From Planctomycetes bacterium syqfu (lineage in GTDB: Bacteria > Planctomycetota > Phycisphaerae > Phycisphaerales > Phycisphaeraceae): DNA of 64,000 nucleotides. The DNA is taken from positions 4,216,001 through 4,280,000 of the forward strand of contig CP087563.1 of the NCBI GenBank assembly GCA_020974905.1, in the 5' to 3' direction. A program made the translations under genes and the position numbers. The notes beneath the pieces were generated by a model, which made no database searches, was not told the DNA's origin, and worked only from the letters and a program-made list of their open reading frames with translations. Below, piece by piece: positions 18,009 through 31,942 of this stretch (position 1 is the first letter of the stretch; every line of letters begins with the position of its first letter).

Positions 18009-18204
18009 GACATTATGCACGTGGCCTTCTGACGTAGGGTGGGTAGAGCGTAGCGAAACCCACCATCGGTGCTTGCAATGGCGTTGAATTGGTGGGTTTC
18101 GCTTTGCTCTACCCACCCTACGAATCATGTCGAGTAAGTCCGACCCCTAAAACATCACTAATCACAGTTCATATAAACACTTGTGAAATGAAGTGCATAA
18201 TGTC
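18009..18204. mobile_element. 196-bp MITE inside dispersed repeat copy 3
   Basis: Perfect 12-bp terminal inverted repeats GACATTATGCAC (18009-18020) and GTGCATAATGTC (18193-18204), flanked by a 6-bp direct duplication CCTGCG (18003-18008 and 18205-18210). It has no ORF. It contains a long internal hairpin at 18033-18122. It is non-autonomous; the transposase family is not identified. Confidence 0.8.
18033..18122. repeat. GTAGGGTGGG...CCCACCCTAC palindrome within the MITE
   Basis: Arms of about 33 nt (18033-18065 and 18089-18122) match at about 31 positions: CGTAGGGTGGGTAGAGC and GCTCTACCCACCCTACG at the outside, CGAAACCCACC and GGTGGGTTTCG inside. This GTAGGGTGGG...AAACCCACC type is a familiar dispersed intergenic repeat in many bacteria. 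Confidence 0.75.
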
Positions 18205-18318: not shown

Positions 18319-20439
18319 TTAGTATGCTGAAGCGCGATTACACAAATCAACCAGAGCATCGACCTGTTTGCGGATTTCCTCTAGTTCTGCTTCCTGATAC
18401 AGCAAAGCTTCGACCTGTGCAGCCTGCTCGGTGATGGGGCCGAACCCGTAACCCCCTGCTGAACCTTTGACCTGGTGCGCCAGTGAGCGAAGGACATCCA
18501 ATTGTTCAGAAGCACAGGCGCTGGAGATGGCTGCAGCGCGCTGAGGCAGATTCATCACATAGTCTTCAACCAGTTCCGCCATATCCGGATCACCTGCAAA
18601 GTCACTGACCAGTGGGGACTTGAGGGCGGCTTCCTGTTTCTCCGTTGTGTCATTGGCGTTGGTGGTCTGCGATTCGGTGGCGTGCTTGACGACCGTCTCG
18701 ACCAACTTCTCTCGATCGATCGGCTTGCAGGTGTAATCATCACAGCCGGCATCCAGACAGCGTTTGCGGTCTGACTCCATGGCATTGGCGGTGAGGCTGA
18801 TGATCTTGCCGGTGTACCCGGATTGGCGAAGTTTCTGAGTGGCTGCCAAACCATCGAGGACCGGCATCTGCATGTCCATGAGAATGACATGGTAGGGCTT
18901 GCCTTGCCTGATCGCATCGGTTGCCATGTCAAAAGCGATCTGGCCGTTCTCGGCAATGTCCACTTTCATGGAGGCCATCTTCAGGACCAGTGAGATGAGA
19001 TTCTGATTGTCCGGTCCGTCTTCAGCAAGCAGGACACGAATGGTGCCAACGGATGCATTGGATGTTGACATGGTTTTCTTTCCTTCCAACTGCTTATCTG
19101 CAGGTGTATTCTCAGGCGTGATGACTTGTTGTGTTTGAGCAGGAATATGATTGGGGATGGTTAACGTAAAGGTCGAACCTTCACCGAGCGTACTGGTTGC
19201 GGTGAGGTCTCCGCCGAGTCGTTTGGCCAACTGTTTACTGATGGTCAATCCCAAGCCGGTCCCACCAAAACGACGGGTGGTTGAGATATCGGCTTGTGTA
19301 AAGGGCGCGAAGATTCTTTCCAGTTGATCCTCTGCCATACCGATCCCGGTGTCGACCACTTGAATCTTGAGCATTTGCGGATGCTTGTCTTCATAGATCA
19401 TGGCGATTTTGATGTGTATGCTACCAGCATCGGTGAACTTGACGGCATTGCCCAGCAGATTGGTAAGAATCTGCCTGACGCGCGTCGGATCGGAGTAGAC
19501 CGCACTGGGAAGCTCGGTGATATATTGCACATCCAATGCCAGGTCTTTTTCCGTAAGACGTGGCATCAAGGCCTGAATCAATTCATCGACCATTTCCACG
19601 GGACTCAAAGGCAGGCGTTCAATCTGCAACTTGCCGGATTCAATTTTGGATAAGTCCAGAATGTCGTTGACAATCGCCAGAAGATGCTGGGAGTTACGTT
19701 GAACAATTGAGATCCAATGCCGAGTCTCATCCGTCAACTGCGTGTCCATCACCAAATCGGTATAACCGATGATGGCAGTCAAGGGCGTTCGGACTTCATG
19801 ACTCATGTTGGCAAGGAACAGGCTCTTGGTCTGATTGGCCTGCTCTGCGTAAAGCAAGGCATCTTTGAGATCCTTGGATCGCTCGGTGACGAGTTTTTCC
19901 AATCGTTCGTTCTGCCTGGCGCCTTCGGCCAGCGAATCAATGAGCACCTGGTGATAGGTCGACTGCAAGGTCAAACGTTCAGATTGCAGTTGCTTGACAC
20001 GGCGTTGGGACACTTCGGATCGCTTGTTGAGCAGGATGTATTTGAGTACAAAATCTGCTGCGGGAAACAGGCTGGTATAGCTTGGCTGTTGGCTCAGGTC
20101 ACTATCGACCATGCGATCAAGCAGTGCCAGCAAATTCCCATCATCAGTGGATGCCAGTTGTATCACCGTGTAATCCACATCACGTAATCGAACCTGGCAT
20201 GTCCGTTCTTGAACCGTTGAATGGGCGAAGGGTTTACTGAGTTGAAGCAGGTCCTGCTTGGAGAAGCGATCGGTTGCAAAGCAGGTTGCCGTAACGGTAT
20301 TTCCTGCGTCCATGGTCCAAAGTGCCGTGGGCGCCAGCCACTGCGCCTGCTGCATCAACCACAGCAAAGCACCGGTTTGATCCACCGGATTGGTGTTGCC
20401 GTTAAACAGCATATCCAATGTCTGGTTGATCTTATTCAT
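18319..20439 (-). CDS. Hybrid histidine kinase (sensor-HisKA-HATPase-REC-HPt)
   Basis: Soluble hybrid kinase of 706 residues. An unassigned N-terminal input region (about 1-190) is followed by a coiled coil, HisKA with phospho-acceptor His214 (LANMSHEVRTPL), HATPase (about 260-440: LLGNAVKFTDAG, VDTGIGM, FGGTGLGL), a receiver with Asp522 (LMDMQMPVLDG) and an HPt domain with His655 (AHQVKGSAGG). It can run a complete internal phosphorelay. There are no membrane segments. The start ATG overlaps the end of the HDOD gene by 8 nt, so it is the last gene of the minus signalling operon. Its likely output partners are the receivers of the divergent operon (inference). Confidence 0.93.
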   Translation of the reverse strand: MNKINQTLDMLFNGNTNPVDQTGALLWLMQQAQWLAPTALWTMDAGNTVTATCFATDRFSKQDLLQLSKPFAHSTVQERTCQVRLRDVDYTVIQLASTDDGNLLALLDRMVDSDLSQQPSYTSLFPAADFVLKYILLNKRSEVSQRRVKQLQSERLTLQSTYHQVLIDSLAEGARQNERLEKLVTERSKDLKDALLYAEQANQTKSLFLANMSHEVRTPLTAIIGYTDLVMDTQLTDETRHWISIVQRNSQHLLAIVNDILDLSKIESGKLQIERLPLSPVEMVDELIQALMPRLTEKDLALDVQYITELPSAVYSDPTRVRQILTNLLGNAVKFTDAGSIHIKIAMIYEDKHPQMLKIQVVDTGIGMAEDQLERIFAPFTQADISTTRRFGGTGLGLTISKQLAKRLGGDLTATSTLGEGSTFTLTIPNHIPAQTQQVITPENTPADKQLEGKKTMSTSNASVGTIRVLLAEDGPDNQNLISLVLKMASMKVDIAENGQIAFDMATDAIRQGKPYHVILMDMQMPVLDGLAATQKLRQSGYTGKIISLTANAMESDRKRCLDAGCDDYTCKPIDREKLVETVVKHATESQTTNANDTTEKQEAALKSPLVSDFAGDPDMAELVEDYVMNLPQRAAAISSACASEQLDVLRSLAHQVKGSAGGYGFGPITEQAAQVEALLYQEAELEEIRKQVDALVDLCNRASAY

Positions 20440-21367
20440 AGCTGGAGGGCATTCCTGATCGGATCAGTTCACGATTGAGTTTGATTTCCGCAGTCAGATC
20501 ATCGTTGATCACCTGCAGGTCCGTGGTAATCAGTTGAAGTTGCTGCATGGACCATTGGTTGGCATTGACGAGTTGATGCCCAATGGAAGACCAGCCGCGC
20601 AAGGTGCAGACGAGGTTGGCCAGATCGACACAGGCAAGAATACGCGTATGTTCGCCGTTATAGCGGTCCACCTGGTGGTGATAACGAATCGCATCATGCA
20701 AGGGCTGGGCAAGCCCCCATTCGTCAGCGATACGAGCCCCGAGCATGGTGTGGTCGTATCCCAGTCGACCCTGTTCGACCAGTGCAAGATTCACACCCGC
20801 GTGCTGCGGGAAGTTGGTCATCATGTCGGTGAAGGTATTGTGTTCGTATTGATCGATGAGAATAATGCCGATGTCATGCAGCAGCCCCGCCAGATAGACT
20901 TCTTCAAACTCGGGCAGTTCACAACGGGCTGCGATCATGCGTGAACAGATCGCCACCGCCACCATGTGTCGCCAGAGTTTGGCGCGGACATATTGACCGC
21001 AACTGTGATTGTGCTTAAAGACACTGGCAACCGATGCCGTCAACGCCAGATCACGCAACTGAGAATAACCCAGCAGGCACACCGCCCGATGCAGGCTCGT
21101 CACCGGATGTGTCAAACCGTAAGCAGCGGAGTTGACACAACGCATCACGCGCGAGGTCATCACCGGATCGGTCGCAAGCACGTTGCACAATTGCTGCGGT
21201 TGGGCATTGGGATCCTGCGACAGGCGGATAAGCTTCATCGCAATGTGCGGCAACGTGGAGACTTCCTTGATGTGACTGAGCATCCGCTCCAGCGCGGTAT
21301 TGACAGGCTTGTTCGAACCAGTGGTCGAAGTCTTGTCTTGATCGGATTGTGTCCTGGCAGTATGCAT
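20432..21367 (-). CDS. HDOD-domain protein with intact HD
   Basis: HDOD output-domain protein, 311 residues. The domain covers about 20-230, with typical TLPHIAMKLIRLSQDP, DPVMTSRVMRCVNSAAYG and LLGYSQLRDLAL segments. The HD pair is intact in GLLHDIG (His164, Asp165). HDOD proteins are usually signalling scaffolds whose catalytic activity is not established. The ATG at 21367 is preceded only by a weak TGGA. It lies 35 nt after the second HDOD gene and overlaps the hybrid kinase gene by 8 nt. Confidence 0.85.
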   Translation of the reverse strand: MHTARTQSDQDKTSTTGSNKPVNTALERMLSHIKEVSTLPHIAMKLIRLSQDPNAQPQQLCNVLATDPVMTSRVMRCVNSAAYGLTHPVTSLHRAVCLLGYSQLRDLALTASVASVFKHNHSCGQYVRAKLWRHMVAVAICSRMIAARCELPEFEEVYLAGLLHDIGIILIDQYEHNTFTDMMTNFPQHAGVNLALVEQGRLGYDHTMLGARIADEWGLAQPLHDAIRYHHQVDRYNGEHTRILACVDLANLVCTLRGWSSIGHQLVNANQWSMQQLQLITTDLQVINDDLTAEIKLNRELIRSGMPSSYE

Positions 21368-21402
21368 ATCAATTCCAGCCACGCCCGGTTACATAACGGT
21401 TA

Positions 21403-22386
21403 TTAGCGCTCACTGATCCCAAGGCTTTCCTGCATGGTCAGATGATCGATAATCAGCGATGCCAAGGCCTGACCTGATTCGACCATGATTTTCTGATGGA
21501 ACGCCTGTTGCGATTCCCACGATCCCAGATCCACTTCGAAGATCTTGCCAATCTGACGTAACTCACTGCGTAAAACACCCAGGTCATTTTCAACGTTCTT
21601 CTGATCAATACCCAGTCGAGGCAAACCATCTGCAAGCCATGCACTGGCGTCCGACGCATCAAGTCCGGCAATGCGCGCGCCAAGCACTTCAACAGCACGG
21701 AACCGTAGATAGGTTTGATCACGGGCACCGGCAAGCAAAGCCTGCAGGCCTTCGCCCATCACAGCCGGGCAACCCATCGCTTCAAGTGTCCATAACGACA
21801 CCTGCGAATGGGTGACATTCAAATCCATCATTTCACGACGATTCAAGGACATCGGGCGAAGCCGAGCACCCAACACACGGTGATAGGCCTGCCCCAGACC
21901 GGCCCAGAGAACAATTGCCCCCAGGCCAAGCACAAGACCGCCTACCAGGTGATCCGGATTGTCATCGGTCTGTTGGCCAAGCTGACTGGCAATGTAGTTG
22001 TTGGCAACACCACAGGCAATGACCCAACGCCACAAATCCTTGCGTCGTGGCAGTTGCCCCTCGGCACTGAGTAACGGGCCGGTGAGCATGACGCTGAGCA
22101 TCAGGTTACTGACCTGACGTAAACCCAGAACCTGCACGGCACGCTGAATCGATTGAATGGCAACACCGTCATGACGACGAACCATGTTGGCAATCCCCAC
22201 CACACGCGTTGCCACATAGGGATCACCCTTGAGCATCTCAGCAATGACCTGAAAATCGGCATTGGGCGACTTGAGTGCATCAAGCACCTTGTTGCACACA
22301 CCGGTATTAAGCACACGCGAGAGATTGCGCTCAAGCTGCACAGCAGTCCAGGCTTGGTCAATGGTTGGCAGGCCGTACTGTATCAT
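21403..22386 (-). CDS. HDOD-like protein with degenerate HD site
   Basis: A 327-residue HDOD relative. The N-terminal helices match the domain (DPYVATRVVGIANMV, RAVQVLGLRQVSNLMLSV), but where the partner protein has LLHDIG this one has VLGLGAIVL, so the metal-binding HD is lost. It is probably a pure scaffold or binding protein. Its start overlaps the HD-GYP stop by 4 nt and GGAGG lies 8 nt upstream, consistent with translational coupling. The C-terminal 100 residues are not assigned. Confidence 0.75.
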   Translation of the reverse strand: MIQYGLPTIDQAWTAVQLERNLSRVLNTGVCNKVLDALKSPNADFQVIAEMLKGDPYVATRVVGIANMVRRHDGVAIQSIQRAVQVLGLRQVSNLMLSVMLTGPLLSAEGQLPRRKDLWRWVIACGVANNYIASQLGQQTDDNPDHLVGGLVLGLGAIVLWAGLGQAYHRVLGARLRPMSLNRREMMDLNVTHSQVSLWTLEAMGCPAVMGEGLQALLAGARDQTYLRFRAVEVLGARIAGLDASDASAWLADGLPRLGIDQKNVENDLGVLRSELRQIGKIFEVDLGSWESQQAFHQKIMVESGQALASLIIDHLTMQESLGISER

Positions 22387-23759
22387 CGGTTACCTCCATT
22401 GGCATTGGCCGGAAAATCAAGATCGAGTGTATCAAGCAATGCGACCGAATCCATACGGCGTTTGGCGTCACGGACGCGTGATGCCGTGGAGACAGTCTGT
22501 AGAATTTCATCATCAGGAATCGACAGAAAAACCTCGGCCAAATCAGGATCAAACTGCGTGCCGGCACAACGATGGATTTCCTCCCGCGCCACGTTCATGT
22601 CCAGACCGCGGCGGTAGGGTCGGTCGGACGTCATGGCATCGTATGTATCGGCAATGGCGGCAACGCGCGAGAGCAATGGAATCTGTTCGCCAGCCAGGCC
22701 GTCGGGATAGCCTTTGCCATCAATCCGTTCATGATGCCAGCGCACGATCGGTGCCGCATTGGCCAGTTGTGGAATATGAGCGATGATCTGATGCCCCACC
22801 ACTGGATGCGGCTTCATCTGATCAAACTCATCTCTGGTCAACGGCAACGGCTTGCGAAGAATCGCATCGGGGACCGCAATCTTGCCAATATCATGAAGCA
22901 GACCGCCGATACGCAGCGTTGCCAGATCACTGCGATCCAGGCTGGCATGACGTGCCAGCATCATTGCGTATGCCGTTACACGTTCGACGTGACCGCCGGT
23001 ATACGGATCGCGCGATTCAATGGCCAATGCCATCGCCACCACCACATCAACGATCATGTTGCTTAACGTTTCAAGCAGTCGCACATTTTCACAGGCCAGT
23101 GTCGTGTGATGCAGCAACGACTGAACCAGGCGAATCTGCTGACTGTCCACCGCATTGGTGTTCTCAGGCAGACAGTAACAGAGCACACCCATCACATAAT
23201 GATCGCTGCACATGCTCATGGCGACGAAATGTTCATCACCCTTGGTCGGATCATAATGCGGCATGACCAGGGGTTGATCGGGATTGACTTCCAGCACCCG
23301 CTGGGCAAGATCCTGAACTTCCAATGGCAGGGATTCGTATGTCGGTTGGGCATCATCCAGGGAATAGATATCGCGAATTTCACTTTTCGAGTTGGGCTCG
23401 ATGAGCCAGATGCGTTTGGCATGCGTCAGCTTTTTGACTTCCTCAAGCAGATCACCCATCACCTGCTTGTAGCTGCGATGCTGCGTGAGCATATCCGCAA
23501 CGCGATTAAGCTGGGCCAGTTCACGCAGGTAATTGATATTGGCGCGAACGACATCGTCTCGCTGTGTTTCAAGTGAGTTGACCTGTTTGACCAGTGCTTC
23601 GACCTGCTGATCAAGCGATCCGCCAAGTGCACCAGAAACAAGGTTATCGGCTGTCTGTTCCGCGGAATCCAATACAAACCTGCTTTCAAATAAAGAGACG
23701 CCAGCCCGACATTTCAATCGGGTGTTCTCGAGGGTGTCTTTATGCACGATCAGGATCAA
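22383..23759 (-). CDS. GAF/HD-GYP cyclic di-GMP phosphodiesterase
   Basis: A 458-residue HD-GYP protein. A coiled coil (about 35-85) is followed by a GAF-like region (about 85-220) and the HD-GYP domain with LLHDIGKIAVPD (His289, Asp290) and HHERIDGKGYP (from 342). All family signature residues are present, so cyclic di-GMP hydrolysis is expected. The start is uncertain: the frame begins with TTG at 23759 and a GTG at 23747 is an alternative; there is no clear Shine-Dalgarno sequence. It is the first gene of the minus signalling operon and diverges from the CheY-like gene with 159 bp between. Confidence 0.9.
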   Translation of the reverse strand: MILIVHKDTLENTRLKCRAGVSLFESRFVLDSAEQTADNLVSGALGGSLDQQVEALVKQVNSLETQRDDVVRANINYLRELAQLNRVADMLTQHRSYKQVMGDLLEEVKKLTHAKRIWLIEPNSKSEIRDIYSLDDAQPTYESLPLEVQDLAQRVLEVNPDQPLVMPHYDPTKGDEHFVAMSMCSDHYVMGVLCYCLPENTNAVDSQQIRLVQSLLHHTTLACENVRLLETLSNMIVDVVVAMALAIESRDPYTGGHVERVTAYAMMLARHASLDRSDLATLRIGGLLHDIGKIAVPDAILRKPLPLTRDEFDQMKPHPVVGHQIIAHIPQLANAAPIVRWHHERIDGKGYPDGLAGEQIPLLSRVAAIADTYDAMTSDRPYRRGLDMNVAREEIHRCAGTQFDPDLAEVFLSIPDDEILQTVSTASRVRDAKRRMDSVALLDTLDLDFPANANGGNR

Positions 23760-23820
23760 GCGAAGATAAAGCGAAAACTCTCAAACCTATCGGACAGTAA
23801 CAGGGGATATAAAAGGTGAA

Positions 23821-23917
23821 AATGTCACTCGACATTAAGTTCCTTAGGGTAAAAGTCGATTCTAGATTCGTATCCCAACCAATATTCGCAAGTCATGTTG
23901 CAAAGCTGAGAATCGAC
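23821..23917. promoter_or_regulatory. Inverted repeats in the signalling divergon promoter
   Basis: Two perfect inverted repeats lie between the divergent HD-GYP and CheY-like genes: AATGTC/GACATT with a 4-nt centre (23821-23836) and the wider pair GTCGATTC (23855-23862) / GAATCGAC (23910-23917), whose right half ends 1 nt before the CheY-like ATG. They are candidate binding or RNA-fold sites; no regulator is assigned. Confidence 0.35.
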
Positions 23918-23918
23918 A

Positions 23919-24317
23919 ATGCCACACAATCCATGCATCCTTCTGGCAGATGACGAGCCGCATATTCTCCTGGCATTGGAATATATGTCGCGCACGCTCA
24001 ACAACGTTACCGTCCACACGGCAAGCGATGGCCCCACGGCAGTGAAACTGGCCATTGACAATCACCCCTGCCTGGTTCTCATGGATGTGATGATGCCCGG
24101 GATTGATGGCTACACCGCCTGTACCACCATCCGTAAGGCATGGGAAAAACAAGACCATCACGGGCAAATCTGGTTTATCACCGCGCGTTCATCAAACATG
24201 GATAACGAGCATGCCCGTAGCGTGGGGGCGGATCAGATCGTCCACAAGCCCTTTGATCCAGACCATCTTCTGAAAATGATGCAGGAACACCTCACATCGT
24301 TTGAGTCCGCTGTATAA
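23919..24317 (+). CDS. CheY-like single-domain response regulator
   Basis: Stand-alone receiver domain, 132 residues. The acidic pair is Asp11/Asp12 (ILLADDEPH), the phospho-acceptor Asp56 (LVLMDVMMPGIDG), the switch Thr88 and the conserved Lys110 (HKPFDP). There is no output domain, so it acts through protein contacts. It is the first gene of the plus signalling operon, 23 nt before the REC-HDOD gene. There is no Shine-Dalgarno sequence. Confidence 0.93.
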   Translation: MPHNPCILLADDEPHILLALEYMSRTLNNVTVHTASDGPTAVKLAIDNHPCLVLMDVMMPGIDGYTACTTIRKAWEKQDHHGQIWFITARSSNMDNEHARSVGADQIVHKPFDPDHLLKMMQEHLTSFESAV

Positions 24318-24340
24318 ATCACTCGCCGGGAGTCAGTACG

Positions 24341-26149
24341 TTGAATCAGGCAGACGCCAAAACTTCAAACCCTTGCACAGAGAATGCTTCTCTGGGACAT
24401 ATCCTGCTGGCTGATGATGATCAACAGACCTGCACAGCCATGTCCTACGTCCTCAGACATCTGGGCTTTGAAGTGACCACGGTCAACAATGGGAGAGACC
24501 TGATCAAATTGGCCATGCAGTCCACATACGATCTGGCCATGATTGATGTCCGCATGCCCGTCCTTGATGGCATGACCACTCTGGCAGCACTCAAACGCAA
24601 TCCCACCACCAGTGATCTGCCTGTCATTCTCATGAGTAAGTACACCTCCGCGGAGGTCTCAAGTAAAAGCAAAGCGTTGGGCGCGGCAGACATTCTGACC
24701 AAGGGTGATCTGAAACTCGAAGATCTGAAAACCAAGATCGTCAGTGCCCTGGGCTATGAATCACGCGAAGTCGAAACACCGCAAAGCAAACTGCCTGCAA
24801 GTCACGAAGAAGCAGTTACGCAATCGCCTGCTGCACAAATGGGGCAAACCGATCCATGGACACAGGCTGCCTCCTCCATTGCAGCCTGCACGTCCGCTGA
24901 GACTCGCGCTGCCGTTGAGATCTCACACTTGTATCTGATTTTCGAACAGATCAAACAGGAGATCAGCAAACTCGGCAATGACCAGGCCCGTCAATGTGTC
25001 CGCCTGGTTGAAATGGATCCCGGTGCGATGGGTTGCGTGTTGCAATATGTCAATCCGGCATGGAAGATCCGAATCAATGCCGGCATGGAGATCATCATCA
25101 GTGTCCGCAAAGCCGTCGAAGCACTGGGCGTTGAAACGGTGCGCAAGATCATCCTGAACATGCCCACCCGCCCGGACGATCCAGTGACACATCCGTGGAT
25201 GATTCACTGGTGGCGTCACGCCATTGCCACGGCCCACCTGGCGTCAGCCATCGGCCCCAGTGTCGGGATTGATGCCGACGAAGCGCGCGTCATGGGACTG
25301 CTTCATGACATCGGTCGACTGCAATTAATCAACAGTGAAATCGGTCACAGCGTCATCCGTACGTATGATGTGGCACGCAATGTCGTCCTGCCGATCACCG
25401 CTTGTGAACAGATCATGCTCGGCGTGGATCATCTGGAACTTGGCGCCGAATTTTGTGAAACGCATGGTTTGCCCGAATCCGTAAGCATGGCCTGCATCAC
25501 GCATGAACTCACCAACGCCCTGCGTCATCGTCTTTCTGAAGAGGATGCCTTGCGCAGCGCCATGCTTTGTGCCTGTGATCAGATTGCCAATGCCTCGGGC
25601 TTCTATTCCCTGCCGGGTATTGACCTGCGTCCCCTGCCTGCCGAAGCACACACGTTCCTGGCACCGGTTCAGGCGCAGATTGAAAACGCATTGGCTCAAG
25701 CCCAGGCCGACATGCATTGGTGGTTAGGTCAAAACGCCCCCGCCATGTTCCACGCCAAGGTGGATATCACCGGCATCAATGTCGTGCTCATCACGTCGCA
25801 CAACAACCATTGGAATCCGTACCGACAGACCTTGAGTCTGGCGGGTGGTCACGTCACCAGCTTCCCTCACCTGCAGAAGATCTCCGACCATGTGACCCGC
25901 CCGGACGTCGTGGTGATTGATCAGACAGCCACCAGTGTCCATTCGGATGTGGAACATCTGCAATTGATCGCACAACGTTTTGAATCCATACCGATTCTGC
26001 TGCTGGCTCAACGTTCGGATGAAGCGGACATGCTCATCGAACAGAAGCATTGGAAAATGCACTTGTATGACAGTCCGATTCGCGCCAACTCATTGCTCCA
26101 GGCCATTCGTAAACTCACTGCAAATCCCAACGGAGGGCAGCAATCATGA
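24341..26149 (+). CDS. REC-HDOD-pseudoreceiver protein
   Basis: Three-part signalling protein, 602 residues. An N-terminal receiver (about 18-140) has acidic residues in ILLADDDQ and phospho-acceptor Asp69 (MIDVRMPVLDG). A middle HDOD domain (about 190-430) has an intact GLLHDIGRL near residue 321. A C-terminal region (about 480-595) shows a receiver-like strand order with Asp527 in VVVIDQ, but lacks the acidic pair and has YDSP where a receiver Lys would be, so it looks like a pseudoreceiver. The TTG start is supported by GGGAG 8 nt upstream; no ATG is suitably placed. The stop overlaps the next ATG by 4 nt. Confidence 0.87.
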   Translation: MNQADAKTSNPCTENASLGHILLADDDQQTCTAMSYVLRHLGFEVTTVNNGRDLIKLAMQSTYDLAMIDVRMPVLDGMTTLAALKRNPTTSDLPVILMSKYTSAEVSSKSKALGAADILTKGDLKLEDLKTKIVSALGYESREVETPQSKLPASHEEAVTQSPAAQMGQTDPWTQAASSIAACTSAETRAAVEISHLYLIFEQIKQEISKLGNDQARQCVRLVEMDPGAMGCVLQYVNPAWKIRINAGMEIIISVRKAVEALGVETVRKIILNMPTRPDDPVTHPWMIHWWRHAIATAHLASAIGPSVGIDADEARVMGLLHDIGRLQLINSEIGHSVIRTYDVARNVVLPITACEQIMLGVDHLELGAEFCETHGLPESVSMACITHELTNALRHRLSEEDALRSAMLCACDQIANASGFYSLPGIDLRPLPAEAHTFLAPVQAQIENALAQAQADMHWWLGQNAPAMFHAKVDITGINVVLITSHNNHWNPYRQTLSLAGGHVTSFPHLQKISDHVTRPDVVVIDQTATSVHSDVEHLQLIAQRFESIPILLLAQRSDEADMLIEQKHWKMHLYDSPIRANSLLQAIRKLTANPNGGQQS

Positions 26150-26925
26150 ATATGCTCTCTGAAATTCAGGCACCATCGATTGACAATCAATCACAGCAGC
26201 TTTGGCAGGATCATGCGCACCTGGCCTATTGCTTTGCCCGGCATGCCCGGCATGATCTGGCCAACGTGCATTGTGCACTGGGGATGCTGGAAATGGTCGA
26301 ACAGATTCAGGCTGATCACCCCGAGATGCCGCTGCCTGATGAGTTGAATCTGGAAACCATTCGCACCAAAGCCCGGGAAGATGTCAAGAAAGTCATCAGC
26401 ATCTCCAATGATCTGATCCTGCTCAGCCAGGCAGCATCAACGCACGCCTATCAGCCGGTGCAAAGTATCTCATTGGGTTTACTGATCAACCAGAACATTG
26501 TTGAAAGACTCGACAGTCGTCAACCGCGCCCTGAACAACTCATCACCGAGACAATCAACACGCAGGTCGTTGCCATGGGCGATATGCTTGGTGTTGCATT
26601 GTGTGCGTTCTACTGTCAGTGGACACCCTGGTCGCAGGGACATCAGAATGCTGCAAACAGTACCGTCAAGCAGGATCGTCATGAACTGACGATGCACATT
26701 CCTGCAGACAACGTGGAGATTCTCAGTCAATTTGCCATCCAACTGGCCAACGCCGAACATGATCATCCATTGGACACACCACTGAATCAGCATCTGACCA
26801 CATCCACGGGCACCATGGCTTTATGGCTTGCCCGACACATTCTCATCATTCACGGCGGTGGCGTGAGTATCCAGGAAAGTGCACCGGAAAAAGGCGTGAC
26901 CATCGTCCTGCCGACCGTGGACTGA
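26146..26925 (+). CDS. Histidine kinase-like protein with degenerate ATPase
   Basis: A 259-residue protein resembling the transmitter core of a histidine kinase. His36 lies in an H-box-like RHARHDLANVHCALGML and the C-terminus has a G-box-like ARHILIIHGGGVSIQE. The N-box asparagines expected in the middle are missing (DMLGVALCAFYCQW), so ATP binding is doubtful. It may be a dimeric phosphotransferase passing phosphate between receivers. The start overlaps the REC-HDOD stop by 4 nt with GGAGG upstream. It is convergent with sulfatase 3, with 17 nt between the stops. Confidence 0.65.
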   Translation: MNMLSEIQAPSIDNQSQQLWQDHAHLAYCFARHARHDLANVHCALGMLEMVEQIQADHPEMPLPDELNLETIRTKAREDVKKVISISNDLILLSQAASTHAYQPVQSISLGLLINQNIVERLDSRQPRPEQLITETINTQVVAMGDMLGVALCAFYCQWTPWSQGHQNAANSTVKQDRHELTMHIPADNVEILSQFAIQLANAEHDHPLDTPLNQHLTTSTGTMALWLARHILIIHGGGVSIQESAPEKGVTIVLPTVD

Positions 26926-29743: not shown

Positions 29744-31843
29744 TTAAGAATTGGTGATGTTTTGATGATTGGGGATGGTGATGCGGCATTCCAGGCCGTT
29801 CTCGGTGAATGAAAAATCGACCGTGCCGTTCATTTCATACTCAACGAGGCCTTTGATGAGTTTCATACCTGTCCCGGGTTGATGGGTGCCATCACAACAC
29901 CCATGGCAACGCGGGCAGTCTTCCTTCCAGAGCATTTCCACGACCGCCCCTTGAGAATCAGCCAGGAGTTGCCATGTCAAATGCACCGACCCCTCAGGAT
30001 TTTTCAATGCGCCGTATTTCATGGCATTGGTTAAAAGTTCATGCAGCGTCATACTCAACGGTGATGACAAACGTGCAAGCATTTTGACCGGCGGGCCGAC
30101 AACGCGGATATGTTCATGTTTGATTTCACATCCCAGTATCAGGTCCACCAATTGATGCAGACTGGTCCCGGCCCATTTTTCCTTGGCTAACGCTTCATGC
30201 GCTCGAGCCAGTGCATGCAGACGACCGCTGTAGACCTGTTGAAATGTCTTGATGTCACTGCTGGAACGGATGGTTTGTGAACACAGGGCAATGACTGTCG
30301 CCAACACATTCTTGACGCGATGATCCAATTCATTGACGAGTAATTGCTGGCGTTCATTGGCATTGACGCGCTCGGTGACATCCGTCTGGATACTGATAAA
30401 GTGCGTGATGGCGCCATGCTGATCATGCATGGGTGCAACAATCATTTCCACCCAGAACTGTGTGCCATCCTTGTGGTAGTTGCGCACAAGCACTTCACAT
30501 TGCGTTTGATTTTTGATGGCTTGGCGCAGCTTCCTGATGCCCGGTTGGTTCTTGTCATCACGATGCATCATGCGCATGTTCTTGCCAATGATTTCATCAG
30601 CTTTGTAGCCACTGATCTTCTCAAATGCCGGATTCACGTAGACGGCCGGGTTGTCCGGCTGCTTGGGATCGGTAATGGCGATGCCATACGGTGCAGACTC
30701 GATGGCTTTATTCAAAAGCTTGAGATTCTGCAGTGTCTTGGCCAGGTCGGTGATATCCCGGCCTGTTGCCTGTATGAGTGTCAACTGATCGTGTTCATCG
30801 TAAAACGCACGCGATTTCCAACTGATCAGGCGTACGCCCAGTGACGGGTGAATGATGGCAATATCATCCTGGGATACGTTGTTTTCAGGCGTGAACCGAT
30901 CAACGATTTTTTTCAGATGATCCAACTCCCGAATCATGAAATACCGATGCAAACCTTCACCGATGAGTTGTTCACGCGACGTTCCCAACAGCTTGCATAA
31001 TGCCTGATTGACAAACGTGATTTCAACGCCCGGCGTGAATCGGATAATCAGTTCCGTCTGATCCTCAACGATCTGTTGATAGAACTCCTTGCTGGTACGC
31101 ACCTCTTCGAACATGGATTCACGTTGACTGATCTCCTGATAGAGATTGGAACACAGTTCTTCAATTCGCTGAGCAATGATATCCAACTCGTCAGGATGCT
31201 TTGGATGCCGACGCAACCGCTGCCAATTCATGGGCAGGTTCAGATTCTTGATATTGATCTGCGTCAGATGATTGGCCATGAAGGACAGATAACGTGTCAC
31301 ACTCAGGCGGATAATGGTGAAATACAACCCCGAAAGAAGCAGCACAAACACAATGGCAAAGATCATGAAATACCCCACTTCATGATGCAATGCCTTACGC
31401 ATGGCCTGATAAGTCACGTGAATCGTCAGCGTCCCGGCTGGTTCTTCTGACATGTAACCCCGCGGCCAGGGCAGCGTGTACGTCCGGATGTCATCATAAG
31501 CCTGACTCGCATCCCCGACCTCGATGACGCGTACATTACCCGGTATTTTCGAATCAACCTTCGCATACGAAATGCTGGAAAATTCAGAGATCGCGCGAAT
31601 AAACATGTACAACTCAAGATAGTTGTCATCCTTGGCTTCCGTGGCAATGGCCTGTAAAAAGCCATTTTCAATCAGAGAAATCTCATCCGAAACCGTTCTA
31701 AAAAAAAGACTGCGGACGTGGTAATAGTGAATCACAAAGCTGATACATGCCAATGCGATACTGCATAACACAACATACAACAGGATCCGCCTGGAGAGTC
31801 CGGAAAATCGAAATGCCGATGTCTCATGTGGTTTGTGATTCAT
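29744..31843 (-). CDS. Membrane PAS-PAS HWE-family sensor histidine kinase
   Basis: A 699-residue sensor kinase. Two membrane segments (about 19-40 and 157-180) enclose an external sensor part. A HAMP-like linker, two PAS domains (about 250-370 and 375-490) and an HWE/HisKA_2 transmitter follow. The phospho-acceptor is His508 in NELDHRVKNVLATV; the ATPase part starts with LHELLTNAMKYGAL. Unusually, the nucleotide-binding lid contains a cysteine cluster C-P-R-C-H-G-C-C before GTGMKLIKGL. The start at 31843 is chosen to place the first helix normally. There is no response regulator gene next to it. Confidence 0.88.
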   Translation of the reverse strand: MNHKPHETSAFRFSGLSRRILLYVVLCSIALACISFVIHYYHVRSLFFRTVSDEISLIENGFLQAIATEAKDDNYLELYMFIRAISEFSSISYAKVDSKIPGNVRVIEVGDASQAYDDIRTYTLPWPRGYMSEEPAGTLTIHVTYQAMRKALHHEVGYFMIFAIVFVLLLSGLYFTIIRLSVTRYLSFMANHLTQINIKNLNLPMNWQRLRRHPKHPDELDIIAQRIEELCSNLYQEISQRESMFEEVRTSKEFYQQIVEDQTELIIRFTPGVEITFVNQALCKLLGTSREQLIGEGLHRYFMIRELDHLKKIVDRFTPENNVSQDDIAIIHPSLGVRLISWKSRAFYDEHDQLTLIQATGRDITDLAKTLQNLKLLNKAIESAPYGIAITDPKQPDNPAVYVNPAFEKISGYKADEIIGKNMRMMHRDDKNQPGIRKLRQAIKNQTQCEVLVRNYHKDGTQFWVEMIVAPMHDQHGAITHFISIQTDVTERVNANERQQLLVNELDHRVKNVLATVIALCSQTIRSSSDIKTFQQVYSGRLHALARAHEALAKEKWAGTSLHQLVDLILGCEIKHEHIRVVGPPVKMLARLSSPLSMTLHELLTNAMKYGALKNPEGSVHLTWQLLADSQGAVVEMLWKEDCPRCHGCCDGTHQPGTGMKLIKGLVEYEMNGTVDFSFTENGLECRITIPNHQNITNS

Positions 31844-31942
31844 AGTCGAACAGGGGGCGGCCGATACCGAGCTTCTCAAACGCCCTGCCGACCCACTGTA
31901 CATACTTTAATCATGGAACATGGTCGTGTCACCCGAAATATC

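Follow-up and report, generated by a model that had tools for sequence, protein, structure and literature searches.

HDOD proteins are common in bacteria, and to our knowledge their roles are largely open. The locus described here raises the question of what three of them could do beside one HD-GYP protein, a free receiver, a hybrid histidine kinase and a kinase-like protein. It lies in a window of 64,000 nucleotides (4216001-4280000 of the single 7.38-Mb contig of Planctomycetes bacterium syqfu) and consists of two compact, divergent operons with seven genes in all, a block found, whole or in part, in five genera. The reading favored here, to which we give an even chance, is that a branched phosphorelay controls the turnover of cyclic di-GMP (c-di-GMP), with the 259-residue kinase-like product of the last plus-strand gene, named P7, acting as a phosphotransferase of the ChpT/Spo0B kind and the HDOD proteins acting as adaptors. 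The features are listed below at their window coordinates, which stand as first given apart from the starts of HDOD1 and HD-GYP; domains were called from Pfam matches above curated cut-offs, and NCBIfam was also scanned.

18319..20439, minus strand: hybrid histidine kinase, 706 amino acids (Pfam HisKA, HATPase_c, Response_reg, Hpt)
20432..21367, minus strand: HDOD1, stand-alone HDOD protein (HDOD, E 1.4e-51)
21403..22386, minus strand: HDOD2, HDOD protein without the HD motif (HDOD, E 5.5e-25)
22383..23672, minus strand: HD-GYP protein, N-terminal part coiled-coil/GAF-like (HD_5, E 2.3e-38)
23673..23918, unstranded: shared intergenic (promoter) region (alignment with L011 and L012)
23919..24317, plus strand: free receiver protein, CheY-like (Pfam Response_reg)
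24341..26149, plus strand: receiver-HDOD protein with a C-terminal degenerate-receiver-like domain at ~475-602 (Pfam Response_reg, HDOD)
26146..26925, plus strand: P7, ATP motifs absent, invariant RHDxxNxHC box; candidate histidine phosphotransferase

The minus-strand operon is transcribed in the order HD-GYP, HDOD2, HDOD1 and hybrid kinase, and the plus-strand operon in the order free receiver, receiver-HDOD and P7. An earlier note on this DNA had described two coupled operons with overlaps of 4, 8 and 4 nt, which the coordinates bear out (8 nt at 20432-20439, 4 nt at 22383-22386 and 4 nt at 26146-26149), and Pfam confirms its count of three HDOD architectures and one HD-GYP. Its shared promoter region of 159 bp, however, presupposes TTG 23759 as the HD-GYP start. 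The first available start codon of this frame in L011 and L012 corresponds to about position 23672 of the window, and an AGCAGG-like ribosome site precedes 23672 (by eye). The gene probably starts at 23672, and because of these two observations an intergenic region of 246 bp is more likely. For HDOD1, ATG 21367 is the probable start, by analogy with L011; the mechanical call is GTG 21382.

The named near relatives are Phycisphaeraceae and Phycisphaerales metagenome-assembled genomes. Conservation was followed in a family sample of 51 Phycisphaeraceae genomes (the own genome, G000, included) with the receiver-HDOD protein as the query. Nine neighborhoods were compared with the window proteins by BLAST; the remaining 42 family genomes were covered by the receiver-HDOD and P7 searches only. 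The receiver-HDOD protein is present near full length, at 30-100% identity, in G000, G192, G191, G193, G168, G053, G175 and G158 (the match is cut by the contig in G193, as it is in G177), and all or part of the block in 8 of the 51 genomes (G000, G191, G192, G193, G168, G053, G158 and G177). It is divergent wherever both sides are on the contig, and its proteins are ~28-63% identical across genera. G192 and G191, which share a genus, have all seven genes with flanks as in the window. G158 has all seven, its kinase being without Hpt, on a contig that stops 68 nt past the block. In G053 the block comprises the kinase, a 405-residue coil-plus-receiver protein, HDOD1, HDOD2, HD-GYP, receiver, receiver-HDOD and P7, and in G168 a 107-residue stand-alone Hpt, HDOD2, HD-GYP, receiver, receiver-HDOD and P7. 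G177 carries HD-GYP, HDOD1, two kinases and a receiver on a contig that ends inside the receiver-HDOD gene, and G193 carries receiver-HDOD and P7 on a contig that begins inside the former. The earlier note had named poor conservation of the neighborhood as one thing that would refute its idea; the divergent order is kept in G191, G192, G168, G053 and G158, and in G193 and G177 as far as their contigs reach, with flanks that differ outside the genus. Furthermore, all seven genes are under purifying selection, with ratios of nonsynonymous to synonymous substitution rates (dN/dS) of 0.03-0.19 against L011 and L012 (Nei-Gojobori; dS is high for L012). Since the block is kept in five genera and its genes show these ratios, it is more than a chance grouping.

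Beyond these blocks, the receiver-HDOD gene stands alone in G175, and G182 has no more than a remote receiver-HDOD. A PilZ-domain gene (L045 7451-7786) lies ~2.3 kb upstream of the orphan gene in G175. A receiver-HDOD profile run on 392 genomes of the phylum matched nine genomes outside the family (E < 1e-38); these matches span the receiver and the HDOD domain and reach at most a short way into the C-terminal domain. At seven of these nine loci a kinase gene adjoins, and P7 is found at none (~1.5 kb of flank on each side).

The hybrid kinase is 82.9% identical in L011 and 59.6% in L012, and has no Pfam match before residue 205. Phospho-site residues are intact in the kinase, the receivers and the Hpt. 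The earlier note's receiver aspartates, Asp56 in the free receiver and Asp69 in the receiver-HDOD protein, are real and invariant in alignments: D11, D12, D56, T88 and K110 of the free receiver are invariant in seven sequences, and the receiver-HDOD protein (HDOD, E 8e-19) has D26 and D69 in 7/7. The HD motif of the latter is lost in G168 and G177. Its C-terminal domain resembles a degenerate receiver without significance by sequence, and the identification is likely at most. D527 is invariant there, the acidic pair and the Lys are absent, the ten best PDB profile matches are all receivers (E 0.02-1, not significant), and hhalign against the free receiver gave 1.2%. In a low-confidence model its strands and helices follow each other as in a receiver. 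For the whole protein the model reaches a predicted local distance difference test score (pLDDT) of 41 and has receivers as Foldseek matches, which may be to either of the two receiver-like parts.

The Hpt varies between blocks. The kinases of G158, G177 (two) and G053 (a CHASE4 kinase) have a terminal receiver and no Hpt, and the stand-alone Hpt of G168, where the kinase is absent, is an orthologue with 50% identity. At L044 4820-6037, the 405-residue protein joins a coiled coil (by eye) to a receiver that shares 52% identity with the receiver of the window kinase, and has no kinase domain match. In G053, a gene for a free-standing CheB methylesterase domain (L083 5710-6345) adjoins the block kinase.

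How could these parts work together? By established phosphorelay logic, phosphate passes from a kinase receiver to another receiver by way of a histidine carrier. In the favored reading, the hybrid kinase would autophosphorylate and pass the phosphate via its own receiver to a histidine phosphotransferase, which in this genome could be the kinase's own Hpt, P7, or both, and which would in turn load the free receiver and the receiver-HDOD protein. P7 is proposed as a carrier because the blocks of G158 and G053 have P7 and no Hpt was found in them; for G053 this includes the flank, read by eye except for two open reading frames that were scanned, and no search aimed at unlinked Hpt proteins was made. 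It would be a dimeric phosphotransferase in the ChpT/Spo0B layout, with a helical hairpin bearing the histidine and a dead ATP domain. The HDOD proteins would serve as non-enzymatic adaptors that convey to the receiver-less HD-GYP enzyme whether the receivers are phosphorylated, and the output would be local c-di-GMP.

The earlier note had counted two kinase-type proteins. This holds for the hybrid kinase; P7 has no Pfam or NCBIfam match and is kinase-like in layout only. Within the first long helix, F30, H33, R35, H36, D37, N40, H42 and C43 are invariant in 7/7 sequences, and the RHDxxNxHC box is the most conserved part of the protein. The N-box asparagine, DxGxG and the glycines of GxGLGL are absent in 7/7 aligned sequences (by eye), and none of the seven members matches HATPase_c or a Pfam phosphotransferase family even at E 5. 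The best PDB profile matches of P7 are the last ATP-domain segments of VanS and FixL, to which its C-terminal end aligns (E 0.05-0.07, not significant), the hairpin has no match among PDB sequences, and Foldseek places histidine kinases in most of the best 40 rows (best E 1.3e-3, probability 0.99). Support for an ATP-domain fold is weak, and the layout would be that of ChpT, a relationship proved neither by sequence nor by fold. The distribution of P7 follows the block: its profile matches in 7 of the 51 family genomes, always beside the receiver-HDOD gene, and P7 is in every block except that of G177, whose contig ends before its place. Among the 392 phylum genomes the profile recovers G053 besides the own genome; outside the family it has just two weak matches, to the ATP-domain end only.

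Several observations weigh against the relay as proposed. No family is matched significantly by the P7 sequence, its AlphaFold model has a pLDDT of 52, so that the hairpin with the conserved histidine is seen in a low-confidence model only, and profile comparison with the block kinases gave a probability of 0.5%, against 0.1% for HDOD2 as a negative control. VIA-align of the model is uninformative, with helical proteins of the STAT kind first (Z 9) and kinases at Z ~7-8; ChpT and Spo0B are not among the matches listed, which proves nothing. The window kinase already has an Hpt, which would make P7 redundant or place it on another branch. The G168 block does without the kinase and HDOD1, and that of G177 without HDOD2, so not every part is essential. 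Finally, the coupling of the HDOD proteins to the HD-GYP enzyme is inferred from gene linkage only. A more far-reaching version, which we hold tentatively and think less probable, is that P7 is the first member of an additional family of dimeric histidine phosphotransferases, one that arose from a decayed histidine kinase separately from ChpT and Spo0B, with the Hpt domain as the dispensable carrier and P7 as the constant one, and with the HDODs carrying the receiver state to a receiver-less phosphodiesterase.

The same features of P7 could fit a regulatory pseudokinase, with a role like that of DivL or RetS, that binds the kinase or a receiver and carries no phosphate. The degenerate ATP domain in 7/7 members, the presence of DivL and RetS among the Foldseek rows and the Hpt already present in the window kinase are in line with this. 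However, the box around the possible phospho-histidine is what P7 conserves most, which a pure scaffold would not need, and blocks in which no Hpt was found still keep P7; a pseudokinase is thus a doubtful, though serious, alternative.

The output side of the favored reading depends on the HD-GYP and HDOD proteins. The former (HD_5, 132 bits versus a cut-off of 27.2) has both motifs intact in the window (HDIGKI and HHERIDGKGYP) and has no Response_reg match in Pfam, that is, no receiver; since HDxGK and HHExxDGxGYP are kept in 7/7 aligned sequences, phosphodiesterase activity is likely. The three HDOD proteins score 175, 88 and 68 bits against a Pfam cut-off of 22.9. HDOD1 keeps its H, HD, DH and HH residues in 6/6 aligned sequences. 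HDOD2, with GLGAIVLWAG, has lost the HD motif, yet it is strongly conserved, and its dN/dS of 0.034 against L011 makes it the most constrained gene of the block in that comparison. The G053 HDOD2 is fused to a GGDEF domain (E 9e-30, GGDEF motif present), which ties HDOD2 to c-di-GMP. Together, this fusion and the HD-GYP motifs support the link between the HD-type proteins and c-di-GMP that had been drawn from the window. The own genome has 9 HDOD (E 1e-12 or better), 6 HD_5 and 14 GGDEF matches, indicating that c-di-GMP signaling is present.

Alternatively, the HDODs and receivers could themselves be the output, in motility or stress as for GsmR, with the HD-GYP enzyme as an independently regulated passenger. 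GsmR regulates motility genes and is without phosphodiesterase activity (PMC4114195), and the HD-GYP protein has a GAF-like input of its own, the GAF match in the N-terminal part being significant in the G158 relative. Yet HD-GYP is found in 7/7 blocks whose contig reaches its place and shares one operon with HDOD2 wherever HDOD2 exists, and the GGDEF fusion of G053 again argues against mere passage, making this alternative unlikely. A link to motility sought by phylogenetic profile was uninformative, FliM being present in 47 of the 51 family genomes.

It is very unlikely that P7 is a working, strongly diverged histidine kinase with its own input, so that two kinases converge in the block, as the wording of the earlier note would have it: a helical hairpin followed by an ATP-domain-like C-terminus is the layout expected of one, but the ATP-site motifs are missing in 7/7 and HATPase_c is not matched at E 5. 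Most improbable of all is that the block serves to regulate sulfatase and sugar-catabolism genes at its flanks and is not a portable module. In favor, there are sulfatases on both sides and a LacI-type regulator and an isomerase-like gene nearby (by eye), all syntenic in L011 and L012. Against it, none of them is beside the block in L043, L044, L046 or L050; in general, the sulfatase, LacI, isomerase and HWE-kinase neighbors do not accompany it outside the genus.

The earlier note also held the clustering of HDOD genes to be unusual, which is right for three genes and not for two. In 25 genomes of the order, of which 22 have an HDOD match at E 1e-12 (100 matches counted by eye, split matches omitted), only two, G000 and G053, have three HDOD genes inside 6 kb, in each case as this block; two-gene clusters recur in three (G000, G125 and G032). 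The own genome has one further cluster:

L061 2605-8864 (C1:1656604-1662863), single direction: second HDOD cluster

Its gene row encodes a PAS histidine kinase, a receiver-HDOD, a receiver-HD-type and a second receiver-HDOD protein. Like the block, it sets kinase, receiver-HDOD and HD-type genes in a row; unlike in the block, each HD-type protein includes a receiver, P7 is absent and, by eye, the HD-GYP motifs look degenerate. HDOD clustering is thus a theme, of which the seven-gene block is an elaborate form.

Known systems offer precedents for parts of this logic. The nearest for the overall logic is RpfC/RpfG of Xanthomonas, in which a hybrid kinase with a receiver and a C-terminal Hpt feeds an HD-GYP phosphodiesterase (PMC3749722). 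The window kinase likewise combines a receiver with an Hpt, whereas the block kinases of G053, G158 and G177 lack the latter. In RpfG the receiver is fused to HD-GYP, whereas in the block HD-GYP is without a receiver and the receivers are on separate proteins, one of them with HDOD. For P7, the proposed likeness is to the dimeric histidine phosphotransferases ChpT and Spo0B, in which a helical hairpin with a conserved histidine precedes a dead ATP-like domain; the C-terminal domain of Caulobacter ChpT has the ATP-domain fold and does not bind ATP (PMC3433190). P7 differs from both in matching no Pfam family and in being found only in this block. Spo0B of Bacillus has an RHDxxN-type box. The HnoK/HnoB/HnoC/HnoD network of Shewanella, which also has several response regulators, includes a degenerate HD-type regulator that acts by protein contact on a c-di-GMP phosphodiesterase (PMC6335343). 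HnoD/HnoB is thus the nearest precedent for non-enzymatic HD-type control. The roles differ, since the enzyme HnoB is of the EAL type and the regulator HnoD is a degenerate HD-GYP, whereas in the block HD-GYP is the enzyme and the HDODs are the presumed adaptors. GsmR and DVU0330 are receiver-HDOD proteins without phosphodiesterase motifs (PMC4114195); compared with them, the block protein has an extra degenerate-receiver-like domain at its C-terminus, and its gene neighbors include HD-GYP and two other HDODs. An EAL-HDOD phosphodiesterase is described in V. cholerae (PMC12607878). Among the papers listed by searches of the open-licence literature on HDOD, phosphorelays and planctomycete signaling, none was seen to describe the seven-gene block. 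Its parts are of known kinds, and the combination and P7 are a variant.

The shared intergenic region contains a stretch at 23815-23866 (AAAGGTGAAAATGTCAC...TTAAGTT...GTCGATT) that is nearly identical in L011 and L012. The apparent small open reading frame there meets a stop at codon 2 in L012, and the region has no sigma-70-type promoter match and no Rfam match. TTAAGTT-N13-GTCGATT was considered as a sigma-28-like regulon motif and rejected, its sole exact match in the own genome being this one; five further matches have one mismatch, versus two for the reversed control. Beyond the end of the kinase gene, at ~18034-18124 of the window, lies a long inverted repeat, gtagggtgggtagagc.../...gctctacccaccctac (by eye), possibly a repeat element. 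Close to the block, 29744-31903 encodes an HWE-type histidine kinase with PAS, syntenic within the genus only.

The block offers a compact place to test HDOD domains as adaptors between phosphorelays and c-di-GMP enzymes, and P7, if the proposed role is true, would be another example of a kinase turned phosphate carrier.

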